A stretch of 64,000 nucleotides of DNA, taken from contig OZ020303.1 of assembly GCA_963971305.1 (NCBI GenBank), positions 33,096,106 to 33,160,105 on the forward strand, in the 5' to 3' direction. How positions within the stretch are numbered: the first letter of the stretch is position 1; each line of letters opens with the position of its first letter. Origin of the DNA: Arcuatula senhousia (Eukaryota > Mollusca > Bivalvia > Mytilida > Mytilidae). This document shows, piece after piece, positions 1,937-64,000 of this stretch. The position numbers and the translations under genes are program-made. The notes under the pieces are model-generated. The model saw nothing but the letters and a program-made list of their open reading frames with translations, was not told where the DNA came from and made no database searches.

Positions 1937-4039
1937 ATTTTGTCAAAACAAATATTGAGGAGATAAATTATACAAGTTTCAATGAAAATGTATGTGTTGT
2001 CTTCCATGTCCGCCAATTCTTTTGCACGCCCCTTACAATACTGGTTATCTACATATATCGTTAAAAGGGAGGTTTGAAGCTGTAATACCTGGTTTAAACT
2101 ATTTCTTTTGAAATGTCTATACCAATTCAGGACCATTCAGATCTTCAACTTTTTGGGGAGTATGTCTTCCTTGTATTGTCTTTTCTCTTGAACCTCAAAC
2201 TTCGGTATTTTGATTATTACCTTTATTATATACAATACCATTTGACGTTTCTATCGCTTTTCATGAAATATTTCACAATTTTGGTGACAAATGTTAGATG
2301 TGTACTTTTTTTAAAATCTAAGATCTGGTGCATAATTTTGGAATGGCGTTATATATTTGTGAACTAAAGCAGTTGTGTTTCTTCTATTTATCGAGTAGTT
2401 TAACCCCAAATCATTACAATATTTAAAAGGGGAATTCAATGATACACTCATGTATATTACAATAATGAAGCATAACATACTCACAATATATAGTCTTAGC
2501 AAAACATAACTTATGCAAAGTTGGCTTATAATAGAAAATGTCGTTAAACAATCTAATTTGAACTACCTTGCTTTCTAGATGCGATACATGATGTGTGTTT
2601 ATTTCTTAATAACGCCTAAAAGCGCTGCTTTTATGCAAGAATAAGCATTATTGGCCGAACTTGGGCTAGAATTTGCTGTTTGAAAATAGGGGTACTGGTA
2701 CTTTGACACGAATCACTCATTACTCATCAGTTCCATGCTTATTTGGGAAAATTGTCCACTTTCCGGAAAGATTTTTTCTTCGAATAGGCATCTCAGAACT
2801 TACCTTGAAGTCTTTGATTCTTAAATATCAGCAATAACAGCTCTCAACATCTAGATTATTATTAAAATTACGTTCTAATTCCTGACCTTTTAGTTAAAGA
2901 AGCAGTTTTTACGCTTATAATTTAGCATAATACAACTTTGATACGCGATAAAAAGCATAATACAACAGCCTCTTTACTTTCCGATCTGACCCCGTGCTGT
3001 CCTAAACCAGGAATCCTTGTCAAAGCCAAAGCTTTTGTTTGTCCCTGTCAACTATCTGTTTTTGTTGTATGTCCAGAAATGTGTCTTTCGTTGATAATCT
3101 AGGGATTTGTTTGAATCTTATGCATTGAATTTTTAGTATTTGGCCAATGCAGGACAGCGAGCGGTGACCTCTGGTCATTTTGAAGACTGCTTGCTGTTTT
3201 CTATTGTGATTTTTTTAAATTTAACACAGAATGCTAGTGTTTACAAATAAAACAGACCAGAAGTCTTAAATTAAGCTGTCTGACAAAGCAACGAAAACAG
3301 TATCAAAATAATAATGTGAATTTTTCATTTATTTAAAGAATGTTTTTATTTTTTTTTGTAAATGACAACCTTTCTTGAATGTTGTGGTCTTGTTGAGTCT
3401 AACGTGTATTCTGTGTTGAGTACTTTCAATTAATCTGTCATTTTCACTTTCTTTTTATTCAACCTTGTTTTTTGTGTTATTATGAGCTACTTTGTATACA
3501 GCTAGTTTATGCTTCTGTAGGTGAGCGATAGACCTGAAATTGAAACCTAAGGCATGGTACCAAAATACTGATGCTGTATACCAAATATCAAGAATATGCT
3601 ATAGTGATCATGATTGGCTGCTGTGAAAAAATATCTGTCCCTGCAATCTCACCTCCCACTGCAAGGGAATTAAAATCACTTCGGACATAAAGTAAGTCAT
3701 ATCAAATTTCAGGTCATTTTCATGTACAGAGTCTGAGAAAAGCTGAATTGAAATTTTTATATGGATGGTTTTTTAATTCCATCTGAGCAGTCATTGTTAA
3801 AGTAAAAAATAATAAAGGGACTAAAAATCAGCTTTTTAACTACAGCTAGCTAACATGTAGCTCTTATTGTTGTATTTAGTCATTTGCTAATATATTTAAT
3901 AAATTCGGAACACTGAACAGACACATATGGTCTACATCTTTTTCACTAGTTTAGACAGGGGTTTTAAGAACACACAATTTTTAAATCAAATATGGATTCT
4001 CAATATCAAATGTGGATTCTCAAAAATTCTAAAGAACTG
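1937..4039. other. Non-coding AT-rich region with decayed repeats
   Basis: Short open frames here have no recognisable motif. About 2985-3065 (cctaaaccaggaatccttgt) resembles, inverted, the repeat at 20.69-20.74 kb. About 3145-3215 (gcgagcggtgacctctggtc, then ttttctattgtga) resembles 18.71-18.79 kb. Otherwise I see nothing. Confidence 0.5.
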
Positions 4040-26618: not shown

Positions 26619-29600
26619 CAGTACTTGAACCGATCAATGCAACAGTTTTTGCGATCCGTCACGCGTCATCAATCAGTCACCAATCAGTCATCGATCCGGT
26701 CTCAATCATTCACCGATCCGTCATCAATCAGTCACCAATCCGTCATCGATCAGTCACCAATCCGTCCGATCCTATCCGTCAAATGCATCCCATGATGCAA
26801 TTTACCAATCCGTCACGCGTCAATTCAATCTAAAATACGGAATTTTTAAGTTCGTTTCGTTTATTGTATCACGTGACTCCTAGATCGAATGCATAAAATA
26901 GAAATCTATATAAATAAATGTAAGAGCGGGATATTTGACAAGTTTTATATTATAATAAAAAAAAATAGAATATTACAAAGCACAGCCAAATTGTGCTTTA
27001 ATAAATATTAAAGTCAAACTTTAATGTAAATTAAGACATAACACATTTCTGTTTTAAAATGCGAAAATTCATACGATTTTTGATGTCAAATATATTATAT
27101 TTTGAAATAAATCATTTAAAATCTTGTCAGAAAGTTATTTTGAAAACATTTTTTTATGATTGTTTTAAAACCATCATATAATATTAAGCTCAAACATCAT
27201 ATTTTAATTTCTCATACATTTGTAGCTTGCATAAGAAATGTTTGGTCTTAACATTTCTATAATGGAAATAAATTTTCTTCATAATCTCTTAAAAATGGTT
27301 AAATAACCTTATTTTTCAAGTGAAAGATATGAAGTTATTCAAGTTTTCAAAAAAACTATAGCATTTATGTGTCAGATCTGATGAAAATAGTTGTTTCGCA
27401 AACAATTTCATGTCAACTTTATTCAACTGTCATATAATTTTAAGCTAAAATATAATTTTACTAAGTTTTATATATTTTATATAAGATATTTGCAAATGTG
27501 ATCTATATTCCTTTGCGAACAAATTTTCTTTTTTATCTCTTAACTATATGAACTTTATTTTTTAAGTCAGCAATATGTTGTTATGCAACTTTTCAACTTA
27601 TCTTAGCATTAAGGTGTCAAACCTGATGAAAAAAGTTGTTTCACAAACATTTTCTTGGCAATTTTATTAAACCATCATATAATTTTATGCTCAAATATAA
27701 GATTTTACTAAAGTTTCATATATTTTACATAAGAAATTTGCAAATGTGATCTATATTACTTTGCAAACAAATTTTCTTCATAATCTCTTAACTTTATGAA
27801 CCTTATTTTTTAAGGCGCCAATATGTACTTATGCAAATTTTCAACTGAACATGCCATTAATGTGTCAAATCTGATGAAAAAAGTTGTTTTGCAAACAATT
27901 TCTTGTCAATTTTATTTAACCGTCATATAATTTTAAGCTAAAATATAAGATTTAACGAACGTTTCATATATTTTACATCAGATATTTGCAAATGTGATCT
28001 ATATTCCTTTGCGAACAGATTTTCTTCATAATCTCTTAACTTTATGAACCTTATTTTTTAAGGCGCCAATATGTACTTATGCAAATTTTCAACTGAACAT
28101 GCCATTAATGTGTCAAATCTGATGAAAAAAGTTGTTTTGCAAACAATTTCTTGTCAATTTTATTTAACCGTCATATAATTTTAAGCTAAAATATAAGATT
28201 TAACGAACGTTTCATATATTTTACATCAGATATTTGCAAATGTGATCTATATTCCTTTGCGAACAGATTTTCTTCATAATCTCTTAACTTTATGAACCTT
28301 ATTTTTTAAGGCGCCAATATGTACTTATGCAAATTTTCAACTGAACATGCCATTAATGTGTCAAATTTGATGAAAAAAGTTGTTTCGCAAACATTTTCTT
28401 GTCAATTTTATTAAACCGTCATATAATTTTATGCTCAAATATAAGATTTTACTAAAGTTTCATATATCTTACATAAGAAATTTGCAAATGTGATCTATAT
28501 TTATATGCAAACAAATTTTCTTTATAATCTCTTAACTTAATTAACCTTACTTTTTAAAGGCAGCAATATGAATTTATGCAACTTTGCAACTTAACATACC
28601 ATTTATGTGTCAAACCTGATGAAAAAATTTGTTTCGCAAACATTTTCTTGTCAATTTTATTAAACCGTCATATAATTTTATGCTCAAATATAAGATTTTA
28701 CTAAAGTTTCATATATTTTACATAAGATATTTTCAAATGTGATCTATATTGGTTTGCGAACAATTTTTTTCATAATCCTCCTAACTTTATGAGCCATATT
28801 TTTTAAGGCGCCAATATGTACTTATGCAAATTTTCAACTGAACATAGCATTTATGTGTCAAATCTAATGAAAAAAGTTGTTTTGCAAACAATTTCTTGTC
28901 AATTTTATTGAACCATCATATAATTTTAAGCTAAAATATAAGATTTAACTAAAGTTTCATATATTTTACATCAGAAATTTGCAAATGTGATCTATATTCT
29001 TTTGCGAACAAATTTTCTTTATTATCTCTTAACTTTATTAACCTTACTTTTTAAGGCAGCATTATGTATTTATGCAACTTTTCAACTTAACATACCATTA
29101 ATGTGTCAAACCTGATAAAAAAAAAATTTGTTTCGCAAACATTTTCTTGTCAATTTTATTAAACCGTCATATAATTTTATGCTCAAATATAAGATTTTAC
29201 TAAAGTTTCATATATTTTACATAAGAAATTTGCAAATGTGGTCTATATTCCTATGCGAACAAATTTAACACAGTGAATTAAAAGAAAATTGAAATAAAAT
29301 TTACTAGATTATTGATATCTCCTGAATATTTTGTTGTTGAATATATGTTACAAATTGTTGAAATAATCATTCTAAGCAGAACCCTTTAACATTTCAAAGA
29401 TTTTTTCAGTACAGTTTCTGTTTTTGTATTTAAAAATCAGAACAAATAAAATAAAATTATATTATTATTATTTTTATGGAAGAAAAGAACACGAACTTTG
29501 CCTATTTAGATTAAAGGAAGTACTATGTAAACGATTATTAAATTCATTAGATTAATAATATTAACATATTTAAATAGAAAATGTAGGTCTTATTTAACAC

Positions 29601-29952
29601 TATAGCATAATTTATTTAAAACAAATTAAATTAACGCCGTCACTGGTTTGTCACGTTGCGTTATACATGTTATAAACGTATAGGTAAAAACGATAACTTC
29701 GTTTCACAGAAGAGTTTTCTAATTATACCGATCGATCGTATCAGTCAAAATAACGGATCGATAGCCCGGTTACCTATGGTATCCGTCATCCGTCCAATCC
29801 GTCCGATCCGTCATCAATCAGTCAACAACCAGTCACCAATCAGTCACCAATCCGTCATCAATCAGTCATCAATCCGGTCCAAACGCGTCATCAATCCGTC
29901 ACCGATCAGTCTTCGATCCGTCAAAGTGTTGCATTGATCGGTTCAAGTACTG
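26619..29952. mobile_element. 3334-bp non-autonomous TIR element carrying a satellite array, TA target duplication
   Basis: Ends are CAGTACTTGAACCGATCAAT (left, 26-bp inverted match continuing GCAACA) and its reverse complement on the right. TA flanks both sides (26617-26618, 29953-29954). Removing the element and one TA brings the two recombinase halves into one frame, which shows precise insertion. CAGT ends with a TA target suggest the Tc1/mariner group. No transposase is encoded. Subterminal blocks (about 26653-26830 and 29775-29925) consist of short gatccgtcatcaatcagtca-type repeats. The centre is a 248-bp tandem array. Confidence 0.88.
27130..29265 (+). repeat. 248-bp satellite array, about 8.6 copies, inside the TIR element
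   Basis: Marker gcgccaatatgtacttatgc occurs at 27815, 28063 and 28311, spaced exactly 248 bp, and again near 28807. Units between 27830 and 28326 look identical, while outer units are more divergent. This pattern fits unequal exchange with homogenisation in the middle. Each unit has a cttaactttatgaacctta block and an aaatgtgatctatatt block. No coding frame. Confidence 0.93.
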
Positions 29953-31071: not shown

Positions 31072-33519
31072 TTATGACACACTCTCTGTAATCATTTTTT
31101 GAGTAGAAAGAAAGTCTGAAAAGTCTCTTCTGTACCTAAGTCCAAGATTCCAACGGGATAAAGAATCTGCAAGCCAATTATCAGCACTGGGAATATAAAG
31201 AAGTCTTATTTCCGCATTAGTGAACGCACATAGCCTTGCAATATGCAACATTTTATGATCTCTACCCTTTCCGCTGTTTAAAATACTAATAACACTTTGA
31301 TTGTCACAATATAATTGTAATCGTCTATTAGTAATGGTCTTGCACCACAATCTAAGCGATATATTGATGGCCAACATTTCGAGTACTCCTATGTGGTCTT
31401 CCACATATTCTTTGGGAATGTCACAGTGGAAGTATTCTAAAGAGTCAGAGTTTGTGCCTCCTAAGCCACTCAAGCAGGCATCGGTTGAAATAATTGTATC
31501 AGGATGGCTCCAAATTACATCTGGAATTATAGTAACTCCATTAAAAGTTTCAAAAAAAGAAATCCACCACTTAATATCAGTTCGCAATTCTTTATCTAAA
31601 GAAATTCTGTAATGAGTGTACTTATACTTTCTCAACGTGGCAAGAAGTCTAGAGATGAATAACCTGCCTCCTCTTACACATTCTGCTGCAAATGCTAACT
31701 TGCCTACGAGTTGTTGAAATTGTCGTTTAGTGCACTTTTTCCGTTTTGAAAATAGAGTCACAAAATCAATTATTTCTCTTAACTTTTGGATAGGAATTTC
31801 AACTGTCATTAGCTCTGTATTGTATTCTTTTCCTAAGAAAACCATTATATGGTAAGGGGGTGCACATTTAGCCTCACTAATCTTAAGACCTAATTCCTTG
31901 AATATATAAAGTGTTTTATGGTATAGGGTAGAAGCATGTTCAGGGGAGGCAACCCCTCCAAAATCATCGAGATAATTGATGAAATCGATGTCATGTCTAC
32001 TAAGAATAAAATTTACTAAATTGGTAATTCTTTGACACGCTTGTGGCGATGAGCGCATCCCAAAGATCAGTCTTTTATCAACATACATAAAGTCTTTCCA
32101 ACGAAAACACTGTAAAAAGTAATCATGAGGATCAATAGCAAACTGACGGAAAGCTTTCGCAAGATCAATCTTAAACATGTGGCAGCCTCGACCGTATTTT
32201 ACCAGCAATTCAATGAATTTTTCATGACGAGGGTATTGTAAAGTTAATTCTTCCCCTAAAAAATAGTCTTTATCGATCCCAGCATTAACTGACTGTTGGC
32301 CTCCATATGAACAATCTACAATTACTCTACGGCCACCCTCCTTTTTAGGCACAGAGAAGATGGGGGCCACTGACGGAGTTAAACGAAACGGGTTATCAAG
32401 GAAAGGACCAGCAATATGTCCTGTAGCTAACTCAGCAAGGATAAACTTTTCAATGTCACTGTCAAATTCTGATCGTACTTGATTCCTAATTGGCGGATTT
32501 GGCAAAAAATTACTAGTAAAATTTATAGGCCAACCAAATTCTAAAAACTGCAAAACTTTGGAGTCATGAAAATCTGAAGCATATTCATACCATTTAGAAA
32601 TATTTAAATCTGTTTCAACCTTAAGCTTACAATGAACATAATTAGGGTTTCCTGATAATAACACTCTGTCATGTAATAAAATATCAGCATTGGTTGTATA
32701 CAAATTATCAGTAACATCAAACAAAAAATATTTGGTTATATCAGCATATTCATAAAAGGATGGTCCAGCTGGCTTAGTGAACCATGAAAATTTACACATA
32801 CAATTATAAACTTTACAATTTTTACAATACCCAGAATCTGTATTTTCGATAAAAAAATTATCAGGGTAAAACTCATGAAAGATATCTTTCTCATTAGAAG
32901 TATCTTGATGATCAAGAGGAGGTAAGTCTTGAACCAGTAGATCTGCACTGAGAGGTGGGGCTACTTCAGGATTCATGGAAATGGGGGGCACACCTGCATT
33001 TTCAGAGGGAAGCACATCTAAAGTACTGATAGGTAAAACAAAAGGCACACCTGCATTTTCAGGGGAAAGCACATCTAACATACAAGAGATTTTAGGCACA
33101 CCTGCATCTTTAGGGGCAGTAAAAACTGTCTCAACTTCCATAGGCACACCTGCACTAAGCGGGGGGAGATCTTTAATGTCCATCTTATTGGGGGACACAT
33201 CTGCATAATCAGAGGGAAGCACATCTAATGTGGATAAAACTTTAGGCACACCTGAAACAACAGGGGAAGAGACTTCTGACTGTTCTAATTTACAAAGGGC
33301 CAGGTTATCTGCACAAAAAGGGGAACACACGTTCGTCTCTTTAAGGAAGGACACACCTGAATTCTCAGAGGAAAACACACCTAACCTCGTAGGGAGGGTT
33401 AAATCTAACTCAGCTAATTTCTCTTTGCTGGTATCTACAATAACAGATATTTTAGAATCAATATTTACATGTACAGTTTCATCACATGAATTAAAATAAC
33501 TAAAAATACATATGTTCAA
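31072..33519 (-). CDS. Reverse transcriptase-RNase H polyprotein of the Ngaro-like element
   Basis: An uninterrupted 815-codon frame. Residues about 45-200 form a Pro/Ser-rich region with a degenerate repeat around NAGVP and LDVLPSE. Residues about 225-245 hold a Cys cluster (CKNCKVYNCMC). RT spans about 370-570: GGRRVIVDCSY, FKIDLAKAFRQFAI (motif A aspartate), FGMRSSPQACQR, and INYLDDFGG, the catalytic YLDD. RNase H follows at about 665-795 with STDACLSGLGG, LEMLAINISLRLW, YCDNQSVISIL and ADNWLADSLSRW, carrying the expected acidic residues. It would copy element RNA and remove the RNA strand. The first 35 residues may not be native, since ORF1 ends only 19 bp upstream and an upstream frame fusion is possible. 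It is the only intact ORF of this copy. Confidence 0.92.
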   Translation of the reverse strand: MNICIFSYFNSCDETVHVNIDSKISVIVDTSKEKLAELDLTLPTRLGVFSSENSGVSFLKETNVCSPFCADNLALCKLEQSEVSSPVVSGVPKVLSTLDVLPSDYADVSPNKMDIKDLPPLSAGVPMEVETVFTAPKDAGVPKISCMLDVLSPENAGVPFVLPISTLDVLPSENAGVPPISMNPEVAPPLSADLLVQDLPPLDHQDTSNEKDIFHEFYPDNFFIENTDSGYCKNCKVYNCMCKFSWFTKPAGPSFYEYADITKYFLFDVTDNLYTTNADILLHDRVLLSGNPNYVHCKLKVETDLNISKWYEYASDFHDSKVLQFLEFGWPINFTSNFLPNPPIRNQVRSEFDSDIEKFILAELATGHIAGPFLDNPFRLTPSVAPIFSVPKKEGGRRVIVDCSYGGQQSVNAGIDKDYFLGEELTLQYPRHEKFIELLVKYGRGCHMFKIDLAKAFRQFAIDPHDYFLQCFRWKDFMYVDKRLIFGMRSSPQACQRITNLVNFILSRHDIDFINYLDDFGGVASPEHASTLYHKTLYIFKELGLKISEAKCAPPYHIMVFLGKEYNTELMTVEIPIQKLREIIDFVTLFSKRKKCTKRQFQQLVGKLAFAAECVRGGRLFISRLLATLRKYKYTHYRISLDKELRTDIKWWISFFETFNGVTIIPDVIWSHPDTIISTDACLSGLGGTNSDSLEYFHCDIPKEYVEDHIGVLEMLAINISLRLWCKTITNRRLQLYCDNQSVISILNSGKGRDHKMLHIARLCAFTNAEIRLLYIPSADNWLADSLSRWNLGLRYRRDFSDFLSTQKMITESVS

Positions 33520-33537
33520 AGATTGAAATACTATTAG

Positions 33538-42007: not shown

Positions 42008-42368
42008 ACATACAAAATACAAATGACAACAAAGTTCCAGACAATAAATTTTGCTACGCCTGACGCGCGTTTCGTCTATTCAAGACTCATCAGAGGCGCT
42101 CTACCAAAAATATTGAAAATGCCAAACACTATATGAATTTGAAGAGCATAGAACAGTACAAACCAAAAACTAAACTTGGGAACCAAATTATTACTAAGAT
42201 AATCAACCTATGTCTGGGGTAGGAAGAACCTTAGGGTTTAGACAATTTTGAAATTTAGACGGATAATTTAAAGCTTTGATGTTTTCACCAACTCAAAAGT
42301 GTTGGTGCCGGAGCGGGCTAACCTCGGGGAATTAAAACTCCACCAGCAGTGCTAACCTTCACGTGTGA
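42008..42368 (-). ncRNA. Single retrozyme-like hammerhead monomer
   Basis: This is the reverse complement of the repeat arrayed at 53.6-58.2 kb. It runs in sense from gtgaaggttagcactgctgg (about 42364) to gttgtcatttgtattt (about 42010). It stands alone and carries one complete hammerhead motif (42057-42098). One unit with defined ends, away from the array, looks like an independent insertion. Confidence 0.75.
42057..42098 (-). ncRNA. Type I hammerhead ribozyme, consensus sequence
   Basis: In sense: stem I strand CGCCT, core CTGATGA, stem II GTCT/AGAC with loop TGAAT, GAAA, minimal stem III in CGCGCG, cleavage triplet GTC, and the pairing strand AGGCG. All core residues are present. Confidence 0.85.
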
Positions 42369-42429
42369 CAACCTTATTAAGTTTTGTTAGTTACTTACAT
42401 TTCGCTTAGTGATTTCAGGGAAGAAACTT

Positions 42430-45379: not shown

Positions 45380-46990
45380 TAAAATTTATAAACAAACGGA
45401 CGACGGCATCCGCACTTCAAAATATAAGTTGCCAAGCTACGTATATTACACCATCCGTACTAAAATATCAAAAAATGAACCAAACGAGCAACAACATCCG
45501 TACATCCAACTGGACAACATGCTCGTACTTCAAAGGGAAAAATAAACAAAACGGACGACACCATCCATGCTTCTGAAATTATAAATTACCAAGACACCCT
45601 GTGCTTACTTTAGTCAAAATTAAAAATTCACCAAAGCAAGTCCTTGCTCCAAAATTATTGAATTTACCAAACAGACACCATGCTCGTACTTCAAAATCAA
45701 AAATTAATAATACAGACACCATGCTCGTACTTCAAAATCAAAAATTAATCATACAGACACCATGATCGTACTTCAAAATCAAATATTAATCATACAGACA
45801 CCATGCTCGTACTTCAAAATCAAAAATTAATCATACAGAGACCATGCTCGTACTTCAAAATCAAAAATTAATCAGACACCATGCTCTTACTTCAAAATAA
45901 AAAATTAATCATACAGAAACCAAGCTCGTATTTCAAAATCAAAAACAGACACCATGCTCGTACTTCAAAATCAAAACGCCATGCTCGTACTTCAAAATCA
46001 AAACGCAATGCTCGTACTTCAAAATCACAACACCATGCTCGTACTTCAATATCAAAAATTAATCATACAGACACCATGCTCGTACTTCGAAATCAAAAAT
46101 TAATCATACAGACACCATGCTCGTACTTCAAAATCAAAAATTAATCAGACACCATACTCGTACTTCAAAATCAAAAATTAATCAGACACCAAGCTCGTAC
46201 TTCAAAAACAAAAAAGTTTACCAACTGGACATAAAGTCCTTGGTCTTGCTTCAAAATTAAAAATCAACAAAACGGACACCAGGTCATTTATACTGCTATA
46301 AAATTAAAATTAACCAAACGGACACCATGCCCGTGCTTCAAAATGAAAAATTAATCATACAGACACTATGCCCGTGCTTCAATTTAAAAAATTAACCAAA
46401 CGGACAATGTCCGTGCTTCACAATTAAAAAATTAACCAAACGGATCCATGTCCAGGCTTCAAAATCAAATATTTACCAAATGGACCCATTTTCGTGCCTT
46501 ATTATTGAAAAATTAACCAAACAGACCCATGTCTTTGCTTCAAAATAAAAAATTAACCAAACGGACCCATGTCATAGCTTCAAAATTAAAAATTAACTAA
46601 ACGGACCCATGTCCGCTTTATCATTAAAAAATTAACCAAACGGACCCATGTCCGCTTCATCATTAAAAAATTAACCAAACGGACCAATGTCCGTGCTTCA
46701 TAATTAAAAATTAACCAAACGGACCCATGTCCGTGCTTCAAAGTTAAAAATTAACCAAACGGACTCATGTCCGCTTCATCATTAAAAAATTAAACAAACG
46801 GACCCATGTCCGCTTCATCATTAAAAAATTAACCAAACGGACCCATGTCCGTTTCATCATTAAAAAGTTAACCAAACGGACCCATGTCCGTTTCATCATT
46901 AAAAGTTAACCAAACGGACCCATGTCCGTGCTACAAAATTAAAAATTAACAAAACGGACCCATGTCCGTACTAAAATCTCTCAAAAGGAC
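45380..46990 (+). repeat. Minisatellite array of about 41-bp units, two subfamilies
   Basis: Subfamily 1 (about 45670-46220): accatgctcgtacttcaaaa recurs at exact 41-bp steps (tgctcg at 45681, 45722, 45804, 45845). Subfamily 2 (about 46300-46990): aaccaaacggacccatgtcc, with CGGAC-CCAT-GTCCG forming a 5-bp hairpin in most units. 45380-45670 is a degenerate start (aacggacgacggcatccgc). About 38 units in all. The open frame at 45881-46144 is a by-product. Confidence 0.92.
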
Positions 46991-53034: not shown

Positions 53035-53654
53035 TTCATGAGACCTAACTGATTATCGTATTTATTACATAGATAAAAACGCCTTAACGTCATAATTTAA
53101 TTGAAAGTTTGGCGTCACAAATGACATTTAATTTGCGGTAAATGACACAAAGAGTGAAAATATCTATGTAATGAAAAAAAAACTTATTGAAATTAATTGG
53201 TTTATTAAAACAAATTGAGAAATGAATCTTGTTTTTTTTTCTATAAATCTAATCGTGCTTTTGGTATAACAGACGTGACTGAAATTCGGAATATTCTCAT
53301 TACAAGTCTAAGCTGTCAATTTCAGAAATGCTTAATCATGGTCAAGCTGTTATCAGTGACAAAACAGAACTTTTAATTGACACGATTCTTTCTTAGAAAT
53401 ATAAAGTAATACTAGAAGTTCACTTTATTAACTTTTATTGCTTACCCCGCCCTGTAAAAAGACAAGTCTTGTCCCATCCTCGCCAATATCATACAAATAA
53501 AAGCAATCATTGAGAATTTTTCATTTATTTAGTTGTGTAAAAGAAACCTTTAGATGGTTAAACCTATACAACAGTCCTCTTTTAACGTGTGACGAACTTG
53601 TTGCATTCCAAACATGGGTGCACAACTCAATATATGCGGCGAGGCTTACATTAA
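53035..53654. other. Non-coding spacer before the hammerhead array
   Basis: AT-rich, no motif recognised. The frame at 53510 runs into the repeat and has no coding meaning. Confidence 0.45.
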
Positions 53655-53663
53655 ATTTTGCTA

Positions 53664-53705
53664 CGCCTGACGCGCGTTTCGTCTATTCAAGAGTCATCAG
53701 AGGCG
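53664..53705 (-). ncRNA. Hammerhead motif 1 of array, stem II damaged
   Basis: Stem II position 10.1 is C instead of G, giving C opposite C at the core boundary. Probably weak or inactive. Confidence 0.75.
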
Positions 53706-54210
53706 CTCTACCAAAAATATTGAAAATCCAAAAACATATGATTATGAAGAGCATAGAACAATGAAACCAAAAATACCGAAATGGGGAACCAAATTGAAAC
53801 TAAGATGGTCAACCTATGTCTGGGGTAGGAAGAACCTTAGGTTTAAACCATTTTGAAATTTAAACGGATAATTTAAAGCTTTGATGTGTTCTCCAACACA
53901 AAAGTGTTTGTGCCGGAGCGGGCTAACCTCGGGGAATTAAAACTCCACCAGCAGCGCTAACCTTCACGGGTGTAAGAAATTCAAATGACAACTAAGATGG
54001 TCAACCTATGTCTGGGGTAGGAAGAACCTTAGGTTTAAACCATTTTGAAATTTAAACGGATAATTTAAAGCTTTGATGTGTTCTCCAACACAAAAGTGTT
54101 TGTGCCGGAGCGGGCTAACCTCGGGGAATCAAAACTCCACCAGCAGCGCTAACCTTCACGGGTGTAAGAAATTCAAATGACAACAAAGTTCCAGACATTA
54201 AATTTTGCTA

Positions 54211-54252
54211 CGCCTGACGCGAGTTTCGTCTATTCAAGACTAATCAGAGGCG
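54211..54252 (-). ncRNA. Hammerhead motif 2 of array, core mutated
   Basis: CTGATGA has become CTGATTA, losing G8, the catalytic guanine. Stem III also has a substitution. Expected inactive. Confidence 0.78.
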
Positions 54253-54565
54253 CTCTACCAAAAATATTGAAAAGCCACAAACATATGATTATGAAGAGCA
54301 TAAAACAATGAAACAAAAAATACCGAAATGGGGAACCAAATTGAAACTAAGATGGTCAACCTATGTCTGGGGTAGGAAGAACCTTAGGTTTAGACAATTT
54401 TGAAATTTAAACGGATAATTTAAAGCTTTGATGTGTTCGCAAACATAAAAGTGTTGGTGCCGGAGCGGGCTAACCTCGGGGAATTAAAACTCCACCAGCA
54501 GCGCGAACCCTCACGGGTGTTAGAAATTCAAATGACAACAAAGTTCCAGACATTAAATTTTGCTA

Positions 54566-54607
54566 CGCCTGACGCGCGTTTCGTCTATTCAAGTCTCATC
54601 AGAGGCG
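54566..54607 (-). ncRNA. Hammerhead motif 3 of array, stem II mismatch (type A monomer)
   Basis: Stem II GTCT is GACT, so A faces A at 10.2/11.2. The core is intact. Confidence 0.78.
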
Positions 54608-54918
54608 CTCTACCAAAAATATTGATAAGCCAAAAACATATGATTATGAAGAGCATAGAACAATGAAACCAAAAATACCGAAATGGGGAACCAAATTGAA
54701 ACTAAGATGGTCAACCTATGTCTGGGGTGGAAGAACCTTAGGTTTAGACAATTTTGAAATTTAAACGGAAATTTAAAGCTTTGATGTGTTCTCCAACACA
54801 AAAGTGTTGGTGCCAGAGCGGGCTAACCTCGTGGAATTAAAACTCCACCAGCAGCGCTAACCTTCACGGGTGTTAGAAATTCAAATGACAACCAAGTTCC
54901 AGACATTAAATTTTGCTA

Positions 54919-54960
54919 CGCCTGACGCGCGTTTCGTCTATTCAAGACTCATCAGAGGCG
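54919..54960 (-). ncRNA. Hammerhead motif 4 of array, consensus
   Basis: All core, stem and cleavage-site positions match the consensus. Confidence 0.85.
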
Positions 54961-55273
54961 CTCTACCAAAAATATTGAAAAGCCAAAAACATATGAATAT
55001 GAAGAGCATAGAACAATGAAACAAAAAATACCGAAATGGGGAACCAAATTGAAACTAAGATGGTCAACCTATGTCTGGGGTAGGAAGAACCTTAGGTTTA
55101 GACAATTTTGAAATTTAAACGGATAATTAAAAGCTTTGATGTGTTCGCAAACATAAAAGTGTTGGTGCCGGAGCGGGCTAACCTCGGGGAATTAAAACTC
55201 CACCAGCAGCGCGAACCCTCACGGGTGTTAGAAATTCAAATGACAACAAAGTTCCAGACATTAAATTTTGCTT

Positions 55274-55315
55274 CGCCTGACGCGCGTTTCGTCTATTCAA
55301 GTCTCATCAGAGGCG
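55274..55315 (-). ncRNA. Hammerhead motif 5 of array, stem II mismatch (type A monomer)
   Basis: Same GACT stem II variant as motif 3, 708 bp away. Confidence 0.78.
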
Positions 55316-55627
55316 CTCTACCAAAAATATTGATAAGCCAAAAACATATAATTATGAAGAGCATAGAACAATGAAACCAAAAATACCGAAATGGGGAACC
55401 AAATTGAAACTAAGATGGTCAACCTATGTCTGGGGTAGGAAGAACCTTAGGTTTAGACAATTTTGAAATTTAAACGGAAATTTAAAGCTTTGATGTGTTC
55501 TCCAACAGAAAAGTGTTGGTGCCGGAGCGGGCTAACCTCGTGGAATTAAAACTCCACCAGCAGCGCTAACCTTCACGGGTGTTAGAAATTCAAATGACAA
55601 CCAAGTTCCAGACATTAAATTTTGCTA

Positions 55628-55669
55628 CGCCTGACGCGCATTTCGTCTATTCAAGACTCATCAGAGGCG
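55628..55669 (-). ncRNA. Hammerhead motif 6 of array, near consensus
   Basis: One change makes the stem III closing pair U-G instead of C-G. The core is intact. Confidence 0.8.
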
Positions 55670-55982
55670 CTCTACCAAAAATATTGAAAAGCCAAAAACA
55701 TATGATTATGAAGAGCATAGAACAATGAAACAAAAAATACCGAAATGGGGAACCAAATTGAAACTAAGATGGTCAACATATGTCTGGGGTAGGAAGAACC
55801 TTAGGTTTAGACAATTTTGAAATTTAAACGGATAATTTAAAGCTTTGATGTGTTCGCAAACATAAAAGTGTTGGTGCCGGAGCGGGCTAACCTCGGGGAA
55901 TTAAAACTCCACCAGCAGCGCGAACCCTCACGGGTGTTAGAAATTCAAATGACAACAAAGTTCCAGACATTAAATTTTGCTA

Positions 55983-56024
55983 CGCCTGACGCGCGTTTCG
56001 TCTATTCAAGTCTCATCAGAGGCG
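55983..56024 (-). ncRNA. Hammerhead motif 7 of array, stem II mismatch (type A monomer)
   Basis: Same GACT stem II variant as motifs 3 and 5, 709 bp from motif 5. Confidence 0.78.
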
Positions 56025-56337
56025 CTCTACCAAAAATATTGATAAGCCAAAAACATATGATTATGAAGAGCATAGAACAATGAAACCAAAAACACCGAAA
56101 TGGGGAACCAAATTGAAACTAAGATGGTCAACCTATGTCTGGGGTAGGAAGAACCTTAGGTTTAGACGATTTTGAAATTTAAACGGATAATTTAAAGCTT
56201 TGATGTGTTCTCCAACACAAAAGTGTTGGTGCCGGAGCGGGCTAACCTCGTGGAATTAAAACTCCACCAGCAGCGCTAACCTTCACGGGTGTCAGAAATC
56301 TAAATGACAACCAAGTTCCAGACATTAAATTTTGCTA

Positions 56338-56379
56338 CGCCTGACGCGCGTTTCGTCTATTCAAGACTAATCAGAGGCG
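56338..56379 (-). ncRNA. Hammerhead motif 8 of array, core mutated
   Basis: CTGATTA, G8 lost as in motif 2. Expected inactive. Confidence 0.78.
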
Positions 56380-56667
56380 CTCTACCAAAAATATTGAAAA
56401 GCCAAAAACATATGATTATAAGCATAGAACAATGAAACCAAAAATACCGAAATTGGGAATCAAATTGAAACTAAGATGGTCAACCTATGTCTGGGGTAGG
56501 AAGAACCTTAGGTTTAGACAATTTTGAAATTAAGACGGATAATTTAAAGCTTTAATGTGTGCTGGAGCGGGCTAACCTCGGGGAATAAAAACTCCACCAG
56601 CAGCGCTAACCTTCACGGGTGTTAGAAATTCAAATGACAACAAAGTTCCAGACATCAAATTTTGCTA

Positions 56668-56709
56668 CGCCTGACGCGCGTTTCGTCTATTCAAGACTCA
56701 TCAGAGGCG
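56668..56709 (-). ncRNA. Hammerhead motif 9 of array, consensus
   Basis: Full consensus match. It is the sense-most upstream motif of the array. Confidence 0.85.
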
Positions 56710-56880
56710 CTCTACCAAAAATATTGAAAAGCCAAAAACATATGATTATGAAGAGCATAGAACAATGAAACAAAAAATACCGAAATGGGGAACCAAATTG
56801 AAACTAAGATGGTCAACATATGTCTGGGGTAGGAAGAACCTTAGGTTTAGACAATTTTGAATTTAAACGGAAATTTAAAG

Positions 56881-57460
56881 TTATTGATAGTTTTACTGTA
56901 TTAAGACGGTTTGTATGTAATGGGTGATAAATGAAAATGAAATGCTGACGAAGTGAAAGGGTAGGCAAATGTGATATGATTGCAGTTTGAAAAAGAAAAA
57001 AATAGAAATTTTGCCACCCTTGATCCACCCGGGATGACTTTGTCAGTTCAACATTCCATTCATGCGTCTTTATTTAAGCTTAAACTATTTTACTCAATCA
57101 AAGGTTGTCTAACATACAAAATATGCTTTTTATTGTACTGAATCTGAGAGGCAGAGATATCAATAGGGCATTCGAATTTCAAAATTCTGAAAGGGCAAAA
57201 CAAAACCAGCAAATACCAACCAGAACAGGACAACAACAACAAAAACGGACAACATATAAAACACGGAAAGTCAACAACTACTGAATATCAATTAACAACG
57301 CGAACTTAAGTTGTAACGAGAGTGAACTCAGATGCTCCGGAAGAGTAATCAGTTCCTGCTTGCTATTACAAATTCGTTGCGTTGCCAGCTGTCAGTTTAG
57401 TGTGTCAAATCTTATAAAGGAAGACAAAACAAAACCCTATGACAAACCATATCTTATAGT
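56881..57460 (-). pseudogene. Penelope-like 3' trailer between the two hammerhead arrays
   Basis: 57135-57460 is the minus-strand PLE trailer (plus strand atcaatagggcattcgaatt, gtgaactcagatgctccgga, then gacaaaacaaaaccctatga). It lies directly against the plus-strand hammerhead pair. 56881-57134 is not recognised. Confidence 0.65.
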
Positions 57461-57783
57461 CAGGCGTAGCAAAATTTATTGTCTGGAACTTTGTTGTCAT
57501 TTGTATTTCGAACAGACGTGAAGGTTAGCACTGCTGGTGGAGTTTAAATTCCCCGAGGTTAGCCCGCTCCGGCACCAACACTTTTTGAGTTGGAGAATAC
57601 ATCAAAGCTTTAAATTACCCGTCTAAATTTCAAAATTGTCTAAACCCTAAGGTTCTTCCTACCCCAGACATAGGTTGAATATCTTAGTAATAATTTGGTT
57701 CCCCAGTTTGGTATTTTTGGCTATACTTTTCTATGCTCTTCATATTCATACAGTGTTTGGCATTTTCAATATTTTTGGTAGAG

Positions 57784-57825
57784 CGCCTCTGATGAGTCTT
57801 GAATAGACGAAACGCGCGTCAGGCG
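57784..57825 (+). ncRNA. Hammerhead motif, plus strand, consensus
   Basis: CGCCT, CTGATGA, GTCT-TGAAT-AGAC, GAAA, CGCGCG, TC, AGGCG in order. Cleavage is expected after the C of GTC (about 57820). Confidence 0.87.
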
Positions 57826-58142
57826 TAGCAAAATTTATTGTCTGGAACTTTGTTGTCATTTGTATTTCGAACAGACGTGAAGGTTAGCACTGCTGGTGGA
57901 GTTTAAATTCCCCGAGGTTAGCCCGCTCCGGCACCAACACTTTTTGAGTTGGAGAATACATCAAAGCTTTAAATTACCCGTCTAAATTTCAAAATTGTCT
58001 AAACCCTAAGGTTCTTCCTACCCCAGACATAGGTTGAATATCTTAGTAATAATTTGGTTCCCCAGTTTGGTATTTTTGGCTATACTGTTCTATGCTCTTC
58101 ATATTCATACAGTGTTTGGCATTTTCAATATTTTTGGTAGAG

Positions 58143-58184
58143 CGCCTCTGATGAGTCTTGAATAGACGAAACGCGCGTCAGGCG
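58143..58184 (+). ncRNA. Hammerhead motif, plus strand, consensus
   Basis: Identical to the motif at 57784, 359 bp downstream. Cleavage at both sites would release one 359-nt monomer. Confidence 0.87.
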
Positions 58185-58225
58185 TAGCAAAATTTATTGT
58201 CTGGAACTTTGTTGTCATTTGTATT

Positions 58226-58794
58226 TATATCTAAGCATGGGGTTAAGATATATCATGACTCCATAATCTAAGCGACTTGGCTTTGTAAGTATTTCTGCCT
58301 TTCTTGTTATTTTTTTCTTTGTGGCGATGAATTAATCACTGTGAAGGTTCTTTTTTCACAATATTAGCAGCCCATCCGAACATTAAATACTAGATAGATG
58401 AGCGTATTTCATCTTTATTTCTGGAATATGAATGTCAGAAACAATTCTCAAGAGGTGATGGTTGATTTTTATACCCCGCCACACGAAGTGGCGAGGTATT
58501 ATGCTATACGTGCGGTATCTGTCCGTCCGTCCGTCCCCCGAAGGTTTCCAGATGATAACTTGAAAATCCGCTAAGGGATTTGAATTATATTTTGCACCAC
58601 TGTTAAGCGCAATTAAATAAAGATTGAGTTCAATTTTCAGGATATTCAACAACAAAATTGAGATACATGTAGCCCACTTTGAAAAATTTAATTTCATTGC
58701 ATGTTGAGATTTTCTGATGTAAGAAAGATAACTCGATCTTTATTTTTAAGGTAACTCAATATCTAATTTTTATGTTTTTCTAAATAGGTCAAAA
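58226..58794. repeat. Non-coding; dispersed repeat with gtccgtccgtcc
   Basis: 58470-58560 (accccgccacacgaagtggc, ggtatctgtccgtccgtcc) looks like the head of a dispersed family with a short hairpin cacgaagtg. Otherwise nothing. Confidence 0.45.
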
Positions 58795-61194: not shown

Positions 61195-61400
61195 GGTATC
61201 ACATTCCTGTACCAAGTCAGGACCATTGCGATCCACAAATTCTCCGGTATGACTGATTCGTTTTTGTCATTTTCTCTGGACTATGAGATTGATCATTCAA
61301 GTTCGGTAGTTTTGTTATTACCTTTAATTTACTACAACCAAGCCAATGTCGCTGCTGGTGGAGTGATAATTCCCCGAGGGCATTGCAACTTGGTAGCTTT
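61195..61400 (+). repeat. Dispersed repeat and a scrap of the hammerhead repeat
   Basis: 61195-61325 is the inverse of 42779-42895. 61345-61382 (gctgctggtggagtgataat, tccccgagg) resembles the retrozyme segment without its ribozyme. Confidence 0.65.
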
Positions 61401-61542: not shown

Positions 61543-62066
61543 TGTGATGCTGGTATTTTTCTTGTGCGAGAGGTTTTTAATGAATTTTGTTACGGCGAAC
61601 GTTTTCCGATAGTAAAAAGTTCCTAATATGGTTTTAAATGTTTAGTGGCAACGGTGCAAGACTTTCCACAACAAAACAATATTAAATTCCAACAATAAAT
61701 TTATTTACGAATTCGGATGCGTCAGGTCAAAGCGCTGACTCCAAAACTGCCACATTCAATATTACAAAAAAATATATATCTTTTTTACAACTTAATCATG
61801 GATTAATTCACAACTTACGTACTTTGATATTCAAACAAGATTATATCTATGACACAATAAAGACTAATGGAAATTGAGTAACATTACAAGTATACATCTA
61901 ATCTTAATCTAACCTCAGAGAAAATATCTTATTATTTTAAAAGGTGACAAGAATTTTAACTTGATTTTGAACAAAAAGTGAAATAAGAATATTTAAAGTC
62001 CATAAAAGAACAAAAAAGTTTAAACATAAAAATATCACAAATTTTAAGTCCATTTCCGGCATGACA
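61543..62066 (-). repeat. 3' LTR
   Basis: Matches 63032-63567 except for small indels (for example, gtaaacaattt is absent here) and a few substitutions. High similarity indicates a young insertion. Confidence 0.92.
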
Positions 62067-62156
62067 GATTCCTCCCGGGTTAAATTGAGACGCGTCCCGC
62101 GTCTCCCGGTTATTATTGTCAATTTGGTATTATGTATGTCAATTTATAATTTGAAG

Positions 62157-62945
62157 CTATCTATAAAAACGATTCCGATGATTTCTTGTCCGTCTTACAG
62201 GTTGATGGAAATGTGCTTCTGGAATCCAACTTTGCTCCTCGGACAACTCTTCGATCTTTTTATTTAAAACATCAACTTGCTGAACTTGCAGTTTTAAGTC
62301 CTGGATTAATTGTTCTGCTTTTGACAATTTACCTTGTAGTGCGACATTTTCCTTTTTGAACTTTTCACTCTCTTTATACACTTCTTCATATCTTAGTTTG
62401 GCTATAACAAACAATGTGTCCTTTCCGATGTTTTCCTGTTCTAATTGTAAGACTTTGGATTGGGCTTCTTGTAACTGTTGACGCAGATTCAACACGGACT
62501 GGTTTAGCAATTTGTTTGCCTTTTCGGCTTTAATAACTTTATTTTCCATCACTTTGTTGTACTTTTTCAATTTTTCTTTTATACTTTTTAATTCAGCTTT
62601 CAGTCCTTCTGATGTGCTTATACAGTTCAAGAACGCCGATCCACGAAATCCATTAAATGGCATTTCTCTTAACCCACGTTTTGCTTCATTGTACTCCTTC
62701 ATCCGACGGGAATCGCGATCTTTTTTCTTCTGTGATTTGGTCGGTTTTCGAGCTGTTAAAGTGTTCTTTGGCGCAGACCAGCATCGGTTCGCAAAATGTC
62801 CGAACTTGTGACAATTAAAACACTGTTTCATGTTAGCTTTGCACTGTCCAAATATATGATGTTGTCCACATTTTCTACACAACGGTCCGTGCATAGCTGG
62901 ATAGTTATTCCATAAGCTCCATTGTGGTCTAAAATTAAAGTCCAT
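62157..62945 (-). CDS. Gag-like protein with two zinc knuckles and a long coiled coil
   Basis: 262 codons, intact, the only gene of the LTR element. Near residues 24-36 is CRKCGQHHIFGQC, a knuckle with one residue fewer than usual before the histidine. Near 42-55 is CFNCHKFGHFANRC, a canonical CX2CX4HX4C knuckle. A basic stretch follows (KPTKSQKKKDRDSRR). Residues about 110-235 are heptad-rich (LKSIKEKLKKYNK, LRQQLQEAQSKVLQLEQEN) and should form a coiled coil. A basic tail ends RRTRNHRNRFYR. Zinc knuckles at the N-terminus, before the coiled coil, reverse the usual Gag order. Function is probably RNA binding and assembly of particles supplied by another element. Start: first ATG, 86 bp inside the 5' LTR edge. 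Confidence 0.8.
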   Translation of the reverse strand: MDFNFRPQWSLWNNYPAMHGPLCRKCGQHHIFGQCKANMKQCFNCHKFGHFANRCWSAPKNTLTARKPTKSQKKKDRDSRRMKEYNEAKRGLREMPFNGFRGSAFLNCISTSEGLKAELKSIKEKLKKYNKVMENKVIKAEKANKLLNQSVLNLRQQLQEAQSKVLQLEQENIGKDTLFVIAKLRYEEVYKESEKFKKENVALQGKLSKAEQLIQDLKLQVQQVDVLNKKIEELSEEQSWIPEAHFHQPVRRTRNHRNRFYR

Positions 62946-63031
62946 ATTAAATTGGGGAATTCTTCACTTAAATGCAAACGGGATCGTGTGTTGTGCTAAA
63001 AAGACAACACGCCTCGGGTTACTCCGCCAAA

Positions 63032-63567
63032 TGTGATGCTGGTATTTTTCTTGTGCGAGAGGTTTTTAATGAATTTTGTTACGGCGAACGTTTTCCGATA
63101 GTAAAAAGTTCCTAATATGGTTTTAAATGTTTAGTGGCAACGGTGCAAGACTTTCCACAACAAAACAATATGTAAACAATTTTAAATTCCAACAATAAAT
63201 TTATTTACGAATTCGGATGCGTCAGGTCAAAGCGCTGACTCCAAAACTGCTACATTCAATATTACAAAAAAAATATATATCGTTTTTACAACTTAATCAT
63301 GAATTAATTCACAACTTACGTACTTTGTTATTCAAACAAGATTATATCTATGACACAATAAAGACTAATGGAAATTGAGTAACATTACAAGTATACATCT
63401 AATCTTAATCTAACCTCAGAGAAAATATCTTATTATTTTAAAAGGTGACAAGAATTTTAACTTGATTTTGAACAAAAAGTGAAATAAGAATATTTAAAGT
63501 CCATAAAAGAACAAAAAAGTTTAAACATAAAAATATCACAAATTTTAAGTCCATTTCCGGCATGACA
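63032..63567 (-). repeat. 5' LTR
   Basis: Partner of 61543-62066. An AATAAA-like aacaataaattt block is present in both LTRs on the plus strand. Confidence 0.92.
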
Positions 63568-64000
63568 ATACCACCAATTTGACTTTTGTTCAGCCAGAGG
63601 GTAACTCATTTCAAAAACATCAAAACATCAGATTCATTTCAAATTATCAAACCATGTTCTATTAAACTCAATGACGTTCTAAAATCATCCTCACTACCTA
63701 CTATTTCGACATGCAGATCTAAAACCGGTAAAAAATCAACTTGCAAGACCTGTGATATGCTTATTATTTCTCCTGAATTTTCCAGTAACTTAAACGGTAA
63801 AGCTTACCAAACCCTTTCTCACGACCCTCTGGACTGTTCTACCGGAAAAGTCATTTACGGAATTGAGTGTACTTTATGTGGACTGTTGTATGTCGGTGAA
63901 ACCAAAAATTCATTGCGTTCTCGCATGTATGGTCATATGTATGACACCAAAAATTCTGATTATCGGGTTTTGTATAACCACTTTAATCAACCTAACCATG

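Follow-up and report, generated by a model that had tools for sequence, protein, structure and literature searches.

Insertions of a probable mussel-type retrozyme with a conserved bulged hairpin in the genome of Arcuatula senhousia

In the mussel Mytilus galloprovincialis, about 5000 type I hammerhead ribozymes, belonging to two similar families, occur in repeats of approximately 350–390 bp that are expressed as circular RNA (circRNA) (PMC7229834; papers given here by PMC number are cited from extracts). CircRNA of the Mytilus element, cloned as MN642551–MN642576, is present in tissues, its ribozyme cleaves at about 0.1 per minute, and ring closure by RtcB in vitro reaches about 30% (PMC7229834). 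Metazoan retrozymes of this type are a source of abundant ribozyme-made circRNA in animals, and how they return to the genome is an open question. Penelope-like elements with minimal hammerheads are the suspected helper, and a review by the discoverers of retrozymes states, in the extracts, that the repeats show no conserved motif pointing to a helper (PMC7761336). The DNA described here, a 64,000 nt stretch of contig OZ020303.1 of the mytilid bivalve Arcuatula senhousia (the window), carries three insertions (E1, E2 and E3; Table 1) that very probably represent a mussel-type metazoan non-long-terminal-repeat (non-LTR) retrozyme, i.e., a short, non-coding and non-autonomous element, with a conserved 42 nt bulged hairpin. 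This degree of confidence applies to the retrozyme identity and the conserved hairpin taken together.

The insertions consist of non-coding units, mostly 353–359 bp long, arranged as an array of nine (E1), a pair (E2) and a monomer (E3). Tandem Repeats Finder reported periods of 355 bp (8.3 copies) and 359 bp (2.1 copies), in agreement with the unit length of 355–359 bp given in a first-pass annotation of the window, although spacings of 330 and 547 bp are also found in E1. The two units checked have a G+C content of 0.396 and 0.393, and their longest stop-free stretch is 66 aa. No tRNA gene was detected in the window by ARAGORN (primer-binding sites and polypurine tracts were not searched for specifically), and the unit has no match in phages. 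The assignment to retrozymes is based on matches to the Rfam hammerhead model RF00163, the tandem period, the composition of the unit and its match to the Mytilus description. The sequence-readable features of metazoan non-LTR retrozymes are present, namely a type I hammerhead with a short stem III, short tandem units in the range of about 150–450 bp, low G+C and a lack of coding capacity, so that the retrozyme-like label originally given to the locus is upheld and the match extends to the Mytilus elements (PMC7229834). We infer the mussel-like label from this agreement with published features.

Twelve type I hammerhead motifs were found in the window. The Rfam search suggested as a check on the first annotation (Hammerhead_1, RF00163; gathering cut-off 34 bits, second pass at E ≤ 1) matched five of them at or above the gathering score, each with 36.5 bits, and six more at lower scores, while the motif near 54210 (minus strand) had no RF00163 match even at E ≤ 1. 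The earlier count of five motifs in twelve fitting the consensus is therefore confirmed. The accompanying claim, that every unit has a type I hammerhead, is supported by the twelve motifs and needs correction for E1, where seven of nine fall below the gathering score and a 192 bp partial duplication has no ribozyme. Half of the motifs (6/12) are complete by a separate structural scan. The gapped core pattern gave 18 matches, some of them alternatives that overlap and one, at 4037, unrelated, compared to a mean of 0.27 and a maximum of 2 in 100 shuffles. A sound motif reads GCGCCT CTGATGA GTCT-TGAAT-AGAC GAAA CGCGCG TC^AGGCGT, with six pairs in stem I, four in stem II and two in stem III, which is closed by a GCGC loop; the palindromic stem III (ACGCGCGU) is able to self-pair across two molecules. 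The structural scan revealed no hammerhead in the opposite polarity of any unit, and a viroid-like RNA with ribozymes on both polarities was rejected accordingly.

E2 and E3 are 94–95% identical while the units of E1 and E2 share only 83–90% identity, indicating that two subfamilies are present. The sequences flanking E1, E2 and E3 are dissimilar, and the inverted arrangement of E1 and E2 is therefore best read as the result of separate arrivals; since the two belong to different subfamilies, the occurrence of arrays on both strands likewise means separate insertions. The differing subfamilies and flanks also rule out a single palindrome made up of E1 and E2. Nine minus-strand units and an inverted plus-strand pair had been annotated initially, and these counts are correct, but E2 is not the inverted half of E1. 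The range then given (53655–58225) takes in both arrays; homology is slightly wider (53648–56888 and 57459–58226), and E3 lies outside it.

The hairpin begins about 61 nt past the hammerhead cut and is found in each of the 12 copies of this region of the unit. It comprises an outer stem of 5–7 pairs, one unpaired base, CU/AG, a GC bulge, UGG/CCG, a U bulge and a terminal GGA../..UCC hairpin. This structure is the minimum in five folded copies (of which those of E2 and E3 are related, and that of locus L023, described below, has an extra inner-stem bulge), and the RNAalifold consensus is the same. The first lead was a match of 28–30 nt between the retrozyme and positions 61350–61379, from which the search pattern CTGCTGGTGGA-N5-10-TCCCCGAGG was derived. 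This pattern has 10 matches in the window and none in 100 shuffles. Shuffles made in Python permuted two-base blocks and are not strict dinucleotide shuffles. The copy near 61350 is a solitary hairpin with a different outer stem, and the structural scan found no hammerhead nearby. A scan of genome contigs with the pattern returned 41 stretches, three of them AT-rich (L005, L010 and L023). Under a strict scan (no more than one mismatch allowed across the conserved strands, at least five outer-stem and four inner-stem pairs), 4 of 217 loci passed: L005 (seven copies), L010, L023 and the GC-rich L036. With looser stems, nine of the 12 retrozyme copies and a site at 61352 were recovered in the window, against none in five block shuffles.

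A covariance model (R1) was then built solely from alignment A2, consisting of L005, L010 and L023, all from the DNA of other organisms. It detected 13 sites in the window, the 12 retrozyme copies and the solitary hairpin, with E values from 2.9e-9 to 6.1e-5 (25.8–35.4 bits for the nine E1 copies), and the next match had an E value of 1.8. Outside L005, L010 and L023, the model gave 15 decoy matches at E ≤ 0.05 (with 97 of the 217 loci searched), 12 bacterial and 3 viral, in loci that had themselves been chosen by hairpin letters. No Rfam family for the hairpin was found at E ≤ 1 in the window, L010, L023 or L005, or at E ≤ 10 in L010:780–1290. In viral contigs, seven patterns retrieved 0, 0, 18, 38, at least 120, 0 and 0 stretches, and none of 176 viral loci passed the structural scan. 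A search of the open-licence literature found no description of a 42 nt hairpin in retrozymes.

The hairpin is conserved, and four independent lineages can be compared. Its outer stem differs among them in sequence (GGTTAGC/GTTAGCC in the retrozyme, CAATGTC/GGCATTG at 61344, GATACC/GGTATC in L005 and GTGTC/GACAC in L023), and the pairing is kept. In alignment A1, with ten rows (6 of the 12 retrozyme copies, 61344, two L005 copies and L023), 94.0% of cells pair compared to 84.0 in shuffles, and sliding the partners lowers the value to 25–62%. Cells changed on both sides number 14, compared to 4.2 in shuffles (0/500 as high), and 6 of the 17 pairs change on both sides; the single-strand letters stay fixed while the outer stem changes. 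Between E2 and E1 units the difference is 0.05–0.07 in the hairpin, 0.02–0.035 in the hammerhead and 0.14–0.24 elsewhere. When E2 is compared with seven other units, with gap columns scored as differences, the corresponding values are 0.024–0.071, 0–0.035 and 0.109–0.238. The hairpin, including its outer stem, also appears in the minimum free energy (MFE) structure of the circles of E2u1, E1u3 and L023.

Two of the loci from other organisms appear to be a second retrozyme-like family. L010 (796–1290) and L023 (1–496) are contig ends with about 1.2 copies of a 401/402 bp unit, 96% identical to one another; the L023 unit has a G+C content of 37% and no match in phages or plasmids. A hammerhead was found in L010 by the structural scan (GGGCTA CTGACGA GGGT-TTGTT-ACCC GAAA CGATCG TA^TAGCCC), with GTA as the cleavage triplet. 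It is the sole match in the 217 loci (1.88 Mb), with none in 40 block-shuffled windows, and has no Rfam match; the L023 copy, in which a stem I strand differs, was missed by the scan. The longest stretch in common with E2 is the hairpin (29 bases), with short scraps elsewhere; the two families share little beyond hairpin and hammerhead. L010 and L023 are contigs in bins bin9s and bin125s, and the remainder of each carries long open reading frames (ORFs) of bacterial look, as judged by eye. Their ends are probably host DNA joined to bacterial contigs during assembly or, alternatively, could be true insertions into bacterial DNA. L005:4551–6307 is a tandem array of 23.5 copies with a 74 bp period, the hairpin forming the core of every copy; it lies in a Bathymodiolus symbiont-bin contig that is taken for host DNA. 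A degenerate hammerhead-like core lies just upstream of this array, at L005:4497.

E2 and E3 share their last 3′ base (TTTGTATTT), which lies 14 nt ahead of the hairpin's outer stem, and the 3′ ends of L023 and L010 lie 12 nt and 8 nt before that stem, respectively. The distance is thus 8–14 nt in four of five retrozyme junctions, a range that was observed rather than predicted beforehand and that comes from a small number of junctions in two families. The 5′ end of E2 falls no more than 3 nt from the point of hammerhead cleavage. Another repeat of the window, X, is present at 61203–61326 (plus strand) and 42896–42773 (minus strand), 96.8% identical over 124 bp. The first copy is followed by the solitary hairpin and the second has none, stopping 17 nt short of the place that the hairpin occupies in the first copy. 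X is no proven retrozyme, and what is taken for its end is simply the point at which similarity stops.

From the sequence, we infer that transcription, cleavage and circle formation take place at this locus. Read-through transcription of the tandem units would give oligomeric RNA, which type I hammerheads would cut after GUC, either alone or paired through the palindromic stem III, and a host ligase of the RtcB type would then close unit-length circles of about 355–359 nt. In the last step, an autonomous element would lend the reverse transcriptase that copies the circle or oligomer into DNA. The 5′ end of E2, close to the cut, would fit the copying of a cleaved oligomer, and the single permuted unit of E3 would fit one round of circle copying.

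Several observations weigh against this interpretation. The native three-stem fold is the plain MFE structure in none of five hammerhead pieces. No clean target-site duplication is seen: the 6 bp sequence ATATCT occurs near E2, its 5′ copy not directly abutting, and none is clear for E1 or E3. The 5′ end of E3 may be placed at about unit position 34 with a deletion or at 53–57, with a 7 nt match upstream, and the 3′ end of E1 is exceptional, being 40 nt before the hairpin and not 8–14. As regards the hairpin, the best decoy (27.4 bits, L041) outscores six decayed E1 copies (25.8–26.4 bits); covariation is weak in A2, which has four distinct rows (25 to 62 of 500 shuffles as high); and single hairpins are only moderately better folded than shuffled sequences (z −1.69 to −2.65). 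Circles of E2 and E1u4 are no more stable than shuffles (z 0.65 and 1.29), those of other units are weakly so (z −0.95, −1.2 and −2.23), and the circle MFE structures of E1u4 and L010 are without the hairpin.

What the hairpin does is a separate matter. Tentatively, it might dock the borrowed reverse transcriptase and set the start of copying, a proposal against which the E1 end, the hairpin-less circle folds of E1u4 and L010 and the modest folding z values have to be counted. At low confidence, the hairpin may also serve more widely, as a mobile tag recognised by a single family of reverse transcriptases in molluscs and perhaps in other groups. Satellites, solitary repeats and retrozyme circles would bear this tag in order to be carried along: the enzyme, bound to the hairpin, would begin copying in a T-rich region 8–17 nt upstream, and an RNA circle, which has no ends, would thus be copied from a fixed point. 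If true, this would explain both unit-length and tandem insertions, and lead to the helper of metazoan retrozymes.

The hairpin could instead act on RNA in another way, by binding a protein through which the circle is stabilised, the ligase recruited or reopening by the ribozyme blocked. The ribozyme in metazoan circles needs a block other than self-pairing (PMC7229834), and a hairpin conserved with compensating changes might provide one, but a hairpin at 61344 without a nearby hammerhead, the 74 bp tandem array of L005 and the position of the hairpin next to insertion ends count against it, and this alternative is about as tentative as the docking proposal. Descent provides a further, rather unlikely, explanation, in which the hairpin goes back to old bivalve repeats as a shared fragment, maintained through inheritance and DNA-level exchange and without function as RNA. 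The satellites BIV160 and Cg170 are reported to share two conserved motifs and to be related to pearl repeats (PMC5139131, PMC6934838), and L005 carries the hairpin as a tandem array; against this, changes on both sides of the outer stem keep its pairing, the single-strand letters are fixed, and L010 and L023 have little in common with E2 beyond the hairpin.

The structure of E1 bears on whether retrotransposition is needed at all. E1 begins inside a unit, and its seven ribozymes with low RF00163 scores carry the changes listed in Table 1. Its cleavage points, as counted from the matches, are spaced at 330, 355, 355, 354, 355, 353, 355 and 547 bp, the last of these being one unit plus the 192 bp duplication. 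In six consecutive units (u3–u8), nine columns separate u3, u5 and u7 from u4, u6 and u8, and the remaining nine three–three splits have no supporting columns. E1 has a higher-order period of two units, along which sound ribozymes take turns with damaged ones. One diagnostic column changes stem II from GTCT to GACT in u3, u5 and u7, with the result that sound and mismatched ribozymes alternate (u8 also has an altered core). Another changes the conserved 3′ strand of the hairpin from CCGAG to ACGAG in the same three units, and one alters the hairpin outer stem in u4, u6 and u8. Slow cleavage persists in an axolotl family whose stem II has a U-U mismatch (PMC7229834), so the mismatched E1 ribozymes are weaker but not surely dead. 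A division of labour between a ribozyme unit and a hairpin unit was considered and dropped, because both types of unit hold a damaged hairpin (26.4 and 25.8 bits). As a weaker corollary, the alternation would mean that the mobile form of E1 may be a dimer circle of about 709 nt.

A higher-order repeat of this kind (9/9 diagnostic columns) is typical of exchange between DNA copies, and together with the seven low-scoring hammerheads it could suggest ordinary satellite DNA spread by unequal exchange, in which the hammerheads are relics irrelevant to spread. That is improbable, given that E2 and E3 are short insertions at dispersed sites, have sound hammerheads and finish at the same 3′ end, that hammerhead and hairpin are the best-kept parts of the unit, and that related repeats of Mytilus are expressed as circles (PMC7229834). 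Retrotransposition and exchange can be compatible, the former seeding insertions and the latter amplifying E1. Finally, the hairpin resembles a ribozyme in having conserved bulged bases flanked by variable stems, but a second self-cleaving ribozyme is very improbable, as no Rfam family matched at E ≤ 1 and the loop letters, compared by eye, differ from the twister-sister-like (lantern) core in the extracts of PMC11620745, an identity that was rejected.

Elsewhere in the window, an 821 aa stop-to-stop frame at 31072–33537 (minus strand) contains a reverse transcriptase domain (RVT_1, E 6.4e-11) and is DIRS-like by eye. Direct repeats at 61543–62066 and 63032–63567 (97% identical) flank a minus-strand ORF (62157–62963) with a cysteine-knuckle look and no Pfam match, and the whole (61543–63567) resembles an LTR element. 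An ORF at 63583–63999 (plus strand), which runs off the window, matches GIY-YIG weakly (20.9 bits against a Pfam cut-off of 22.6; E 4.4e-4) and contains cysteines in the manner of Penelope-like endonucleases; the window yielded no identified Penelope reverse transcriptase. Tandem arrays include eight copies of a 248 bp repeat (27270–29266), flanked on both sides by similar arrays of 11/22 bp repeats (26665–26766 and 29806–29923), and overlapping 40/41/82 bp arrays with a strong strand skew at 45661–46969.

Table 1. Insertions, hammerhead motifs and hairpins in the window. Bit scores are for RF00163 (hammerheads) and for model R1 (hairpins).
Feature	Position	Strand	Score and remarks
E1	53648–56888	-	probable retrozyme array, decayed; nine hammerheads, nine hairpins, one 192 bp partial duplication; two-unit higher-order repeat
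E2	57459–58226	+	probable retrozyme dimer; two full 359 bp units + 48 nt
E3	42015–42370	-	probable retrozyme monomer; single permuted unit; outside 53655–58225
Type I hammerhead, E2 unit 1	57783–57826	+	36.5 bits; predicted cut after C57820
Type I hammerhead, E2 unit 2	58142–58185	+	36.5 bits; predicted cut after C58179
Type I hammerhead, E3	42056–42099	-	36.5 bits
Type I hammerhead, E1	56667–56710	-	36.5 bits; sound
Type I hammerhead, E1	54918–54961	-	36.5 bits; sound
Type I hammerhead, E1	55627–55670	-	32.8 bits; stem III wobble only; complete by structural scan
Type I hammerhead, E1	54565–54608	-	28.9 bits; stem II A-A mismatch
Type I hammerhead, E1	55982–56025	-	28.9 bits; stem II A-A mismatch
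Type I hammerhead, E1	55273–55316	-	24.6 bits; stem II A-A mismatch
Type I hammerhead, E1	56337–56380	-	28.8 bits; core CTGATTA
Type I hammerhead, E1	53663–53706	-	26.0 bits; stem II C-C mismatch
Degenerate hammerhead, E1	54210–54253	-	from sequence, bounds by analogy; core CTGATTA, stem III altered
Hairpin, E2 unit 1	57523–57564	+	32.1 bits; R1, folding
Hairpin, E2 unit 2	57882–57923	+	32.1 bits; R1
Hairpin, E3	42316–42357	-	34.6 bits; R1, folding
Hairpins 1–3 of nine, E1	53921–53962, 54113–54154, 54468–54509	-	R1
Hairpins 4–6 of nine, E1	54821–54862, 55176–55217, 55530–55571	-	R1
Hairpins 7–9 of nine, E1	55885–55926, 56240–56281, 56570–56611	-	R1
Solitary hairpin, different outer stem	61344–61385	+	40.1 bits; R1, pattern, folding

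Plant LTR retrozymes have type III hammerheads within LTRs and circles of about 600–800 nt; the type I motif and units of about 355 bp in the window exclude this identity. The BIV160/Cg170 satellites presumably bear a likeness to the hairpin, which may correspond to one of their two conserved motifs. BIV160/Cg170 and the pearl (Helentron) repeats are, like the elements of the window, old dispersed bivalve tandem repeats with conserved motifs; compared by description only, BIV160/Cg170 differ in having monomers of about 160–170 bp and, in the extracts, no named hammerhead (PMC5139131, PMC6934838). For Nin-SINE, the extracts of PMC11121367 yielded no letters for comparison. The hammerheads of Penelope-like elements are minimal (PMC7761336), whereas those of the window have full stems. 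Retrozymes of axolotl and newt likewise form tandem repeats (330–353 bp), and the loop on stem III of their type I hammerheads is palindromic (PMC7229834), but they come from other organisms and differ in sequence; in the window, stem III consists of two pairs, and stem II is sound and mismatched by turns along E1. By description and not by letters, the elements of the window resemble the Mytilus retrozymes, which likewise have a type I hammerhead, low G+C, tandem units of about 350–390 bp and two similar ribozyme families; the extracted description names no second conserved hairpin (PMC7229834). The element of the window is a set of new copies of a known kind, the metazoan non-LTR retrozyme, and the hairpin is an added part. 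Being about as conserved as the ribozyme, common to other repeats and located beside insertion ends, the hairpin offers a handle on the helper element, and could tie old bivalve satellites to ribozyme-bearing circles.

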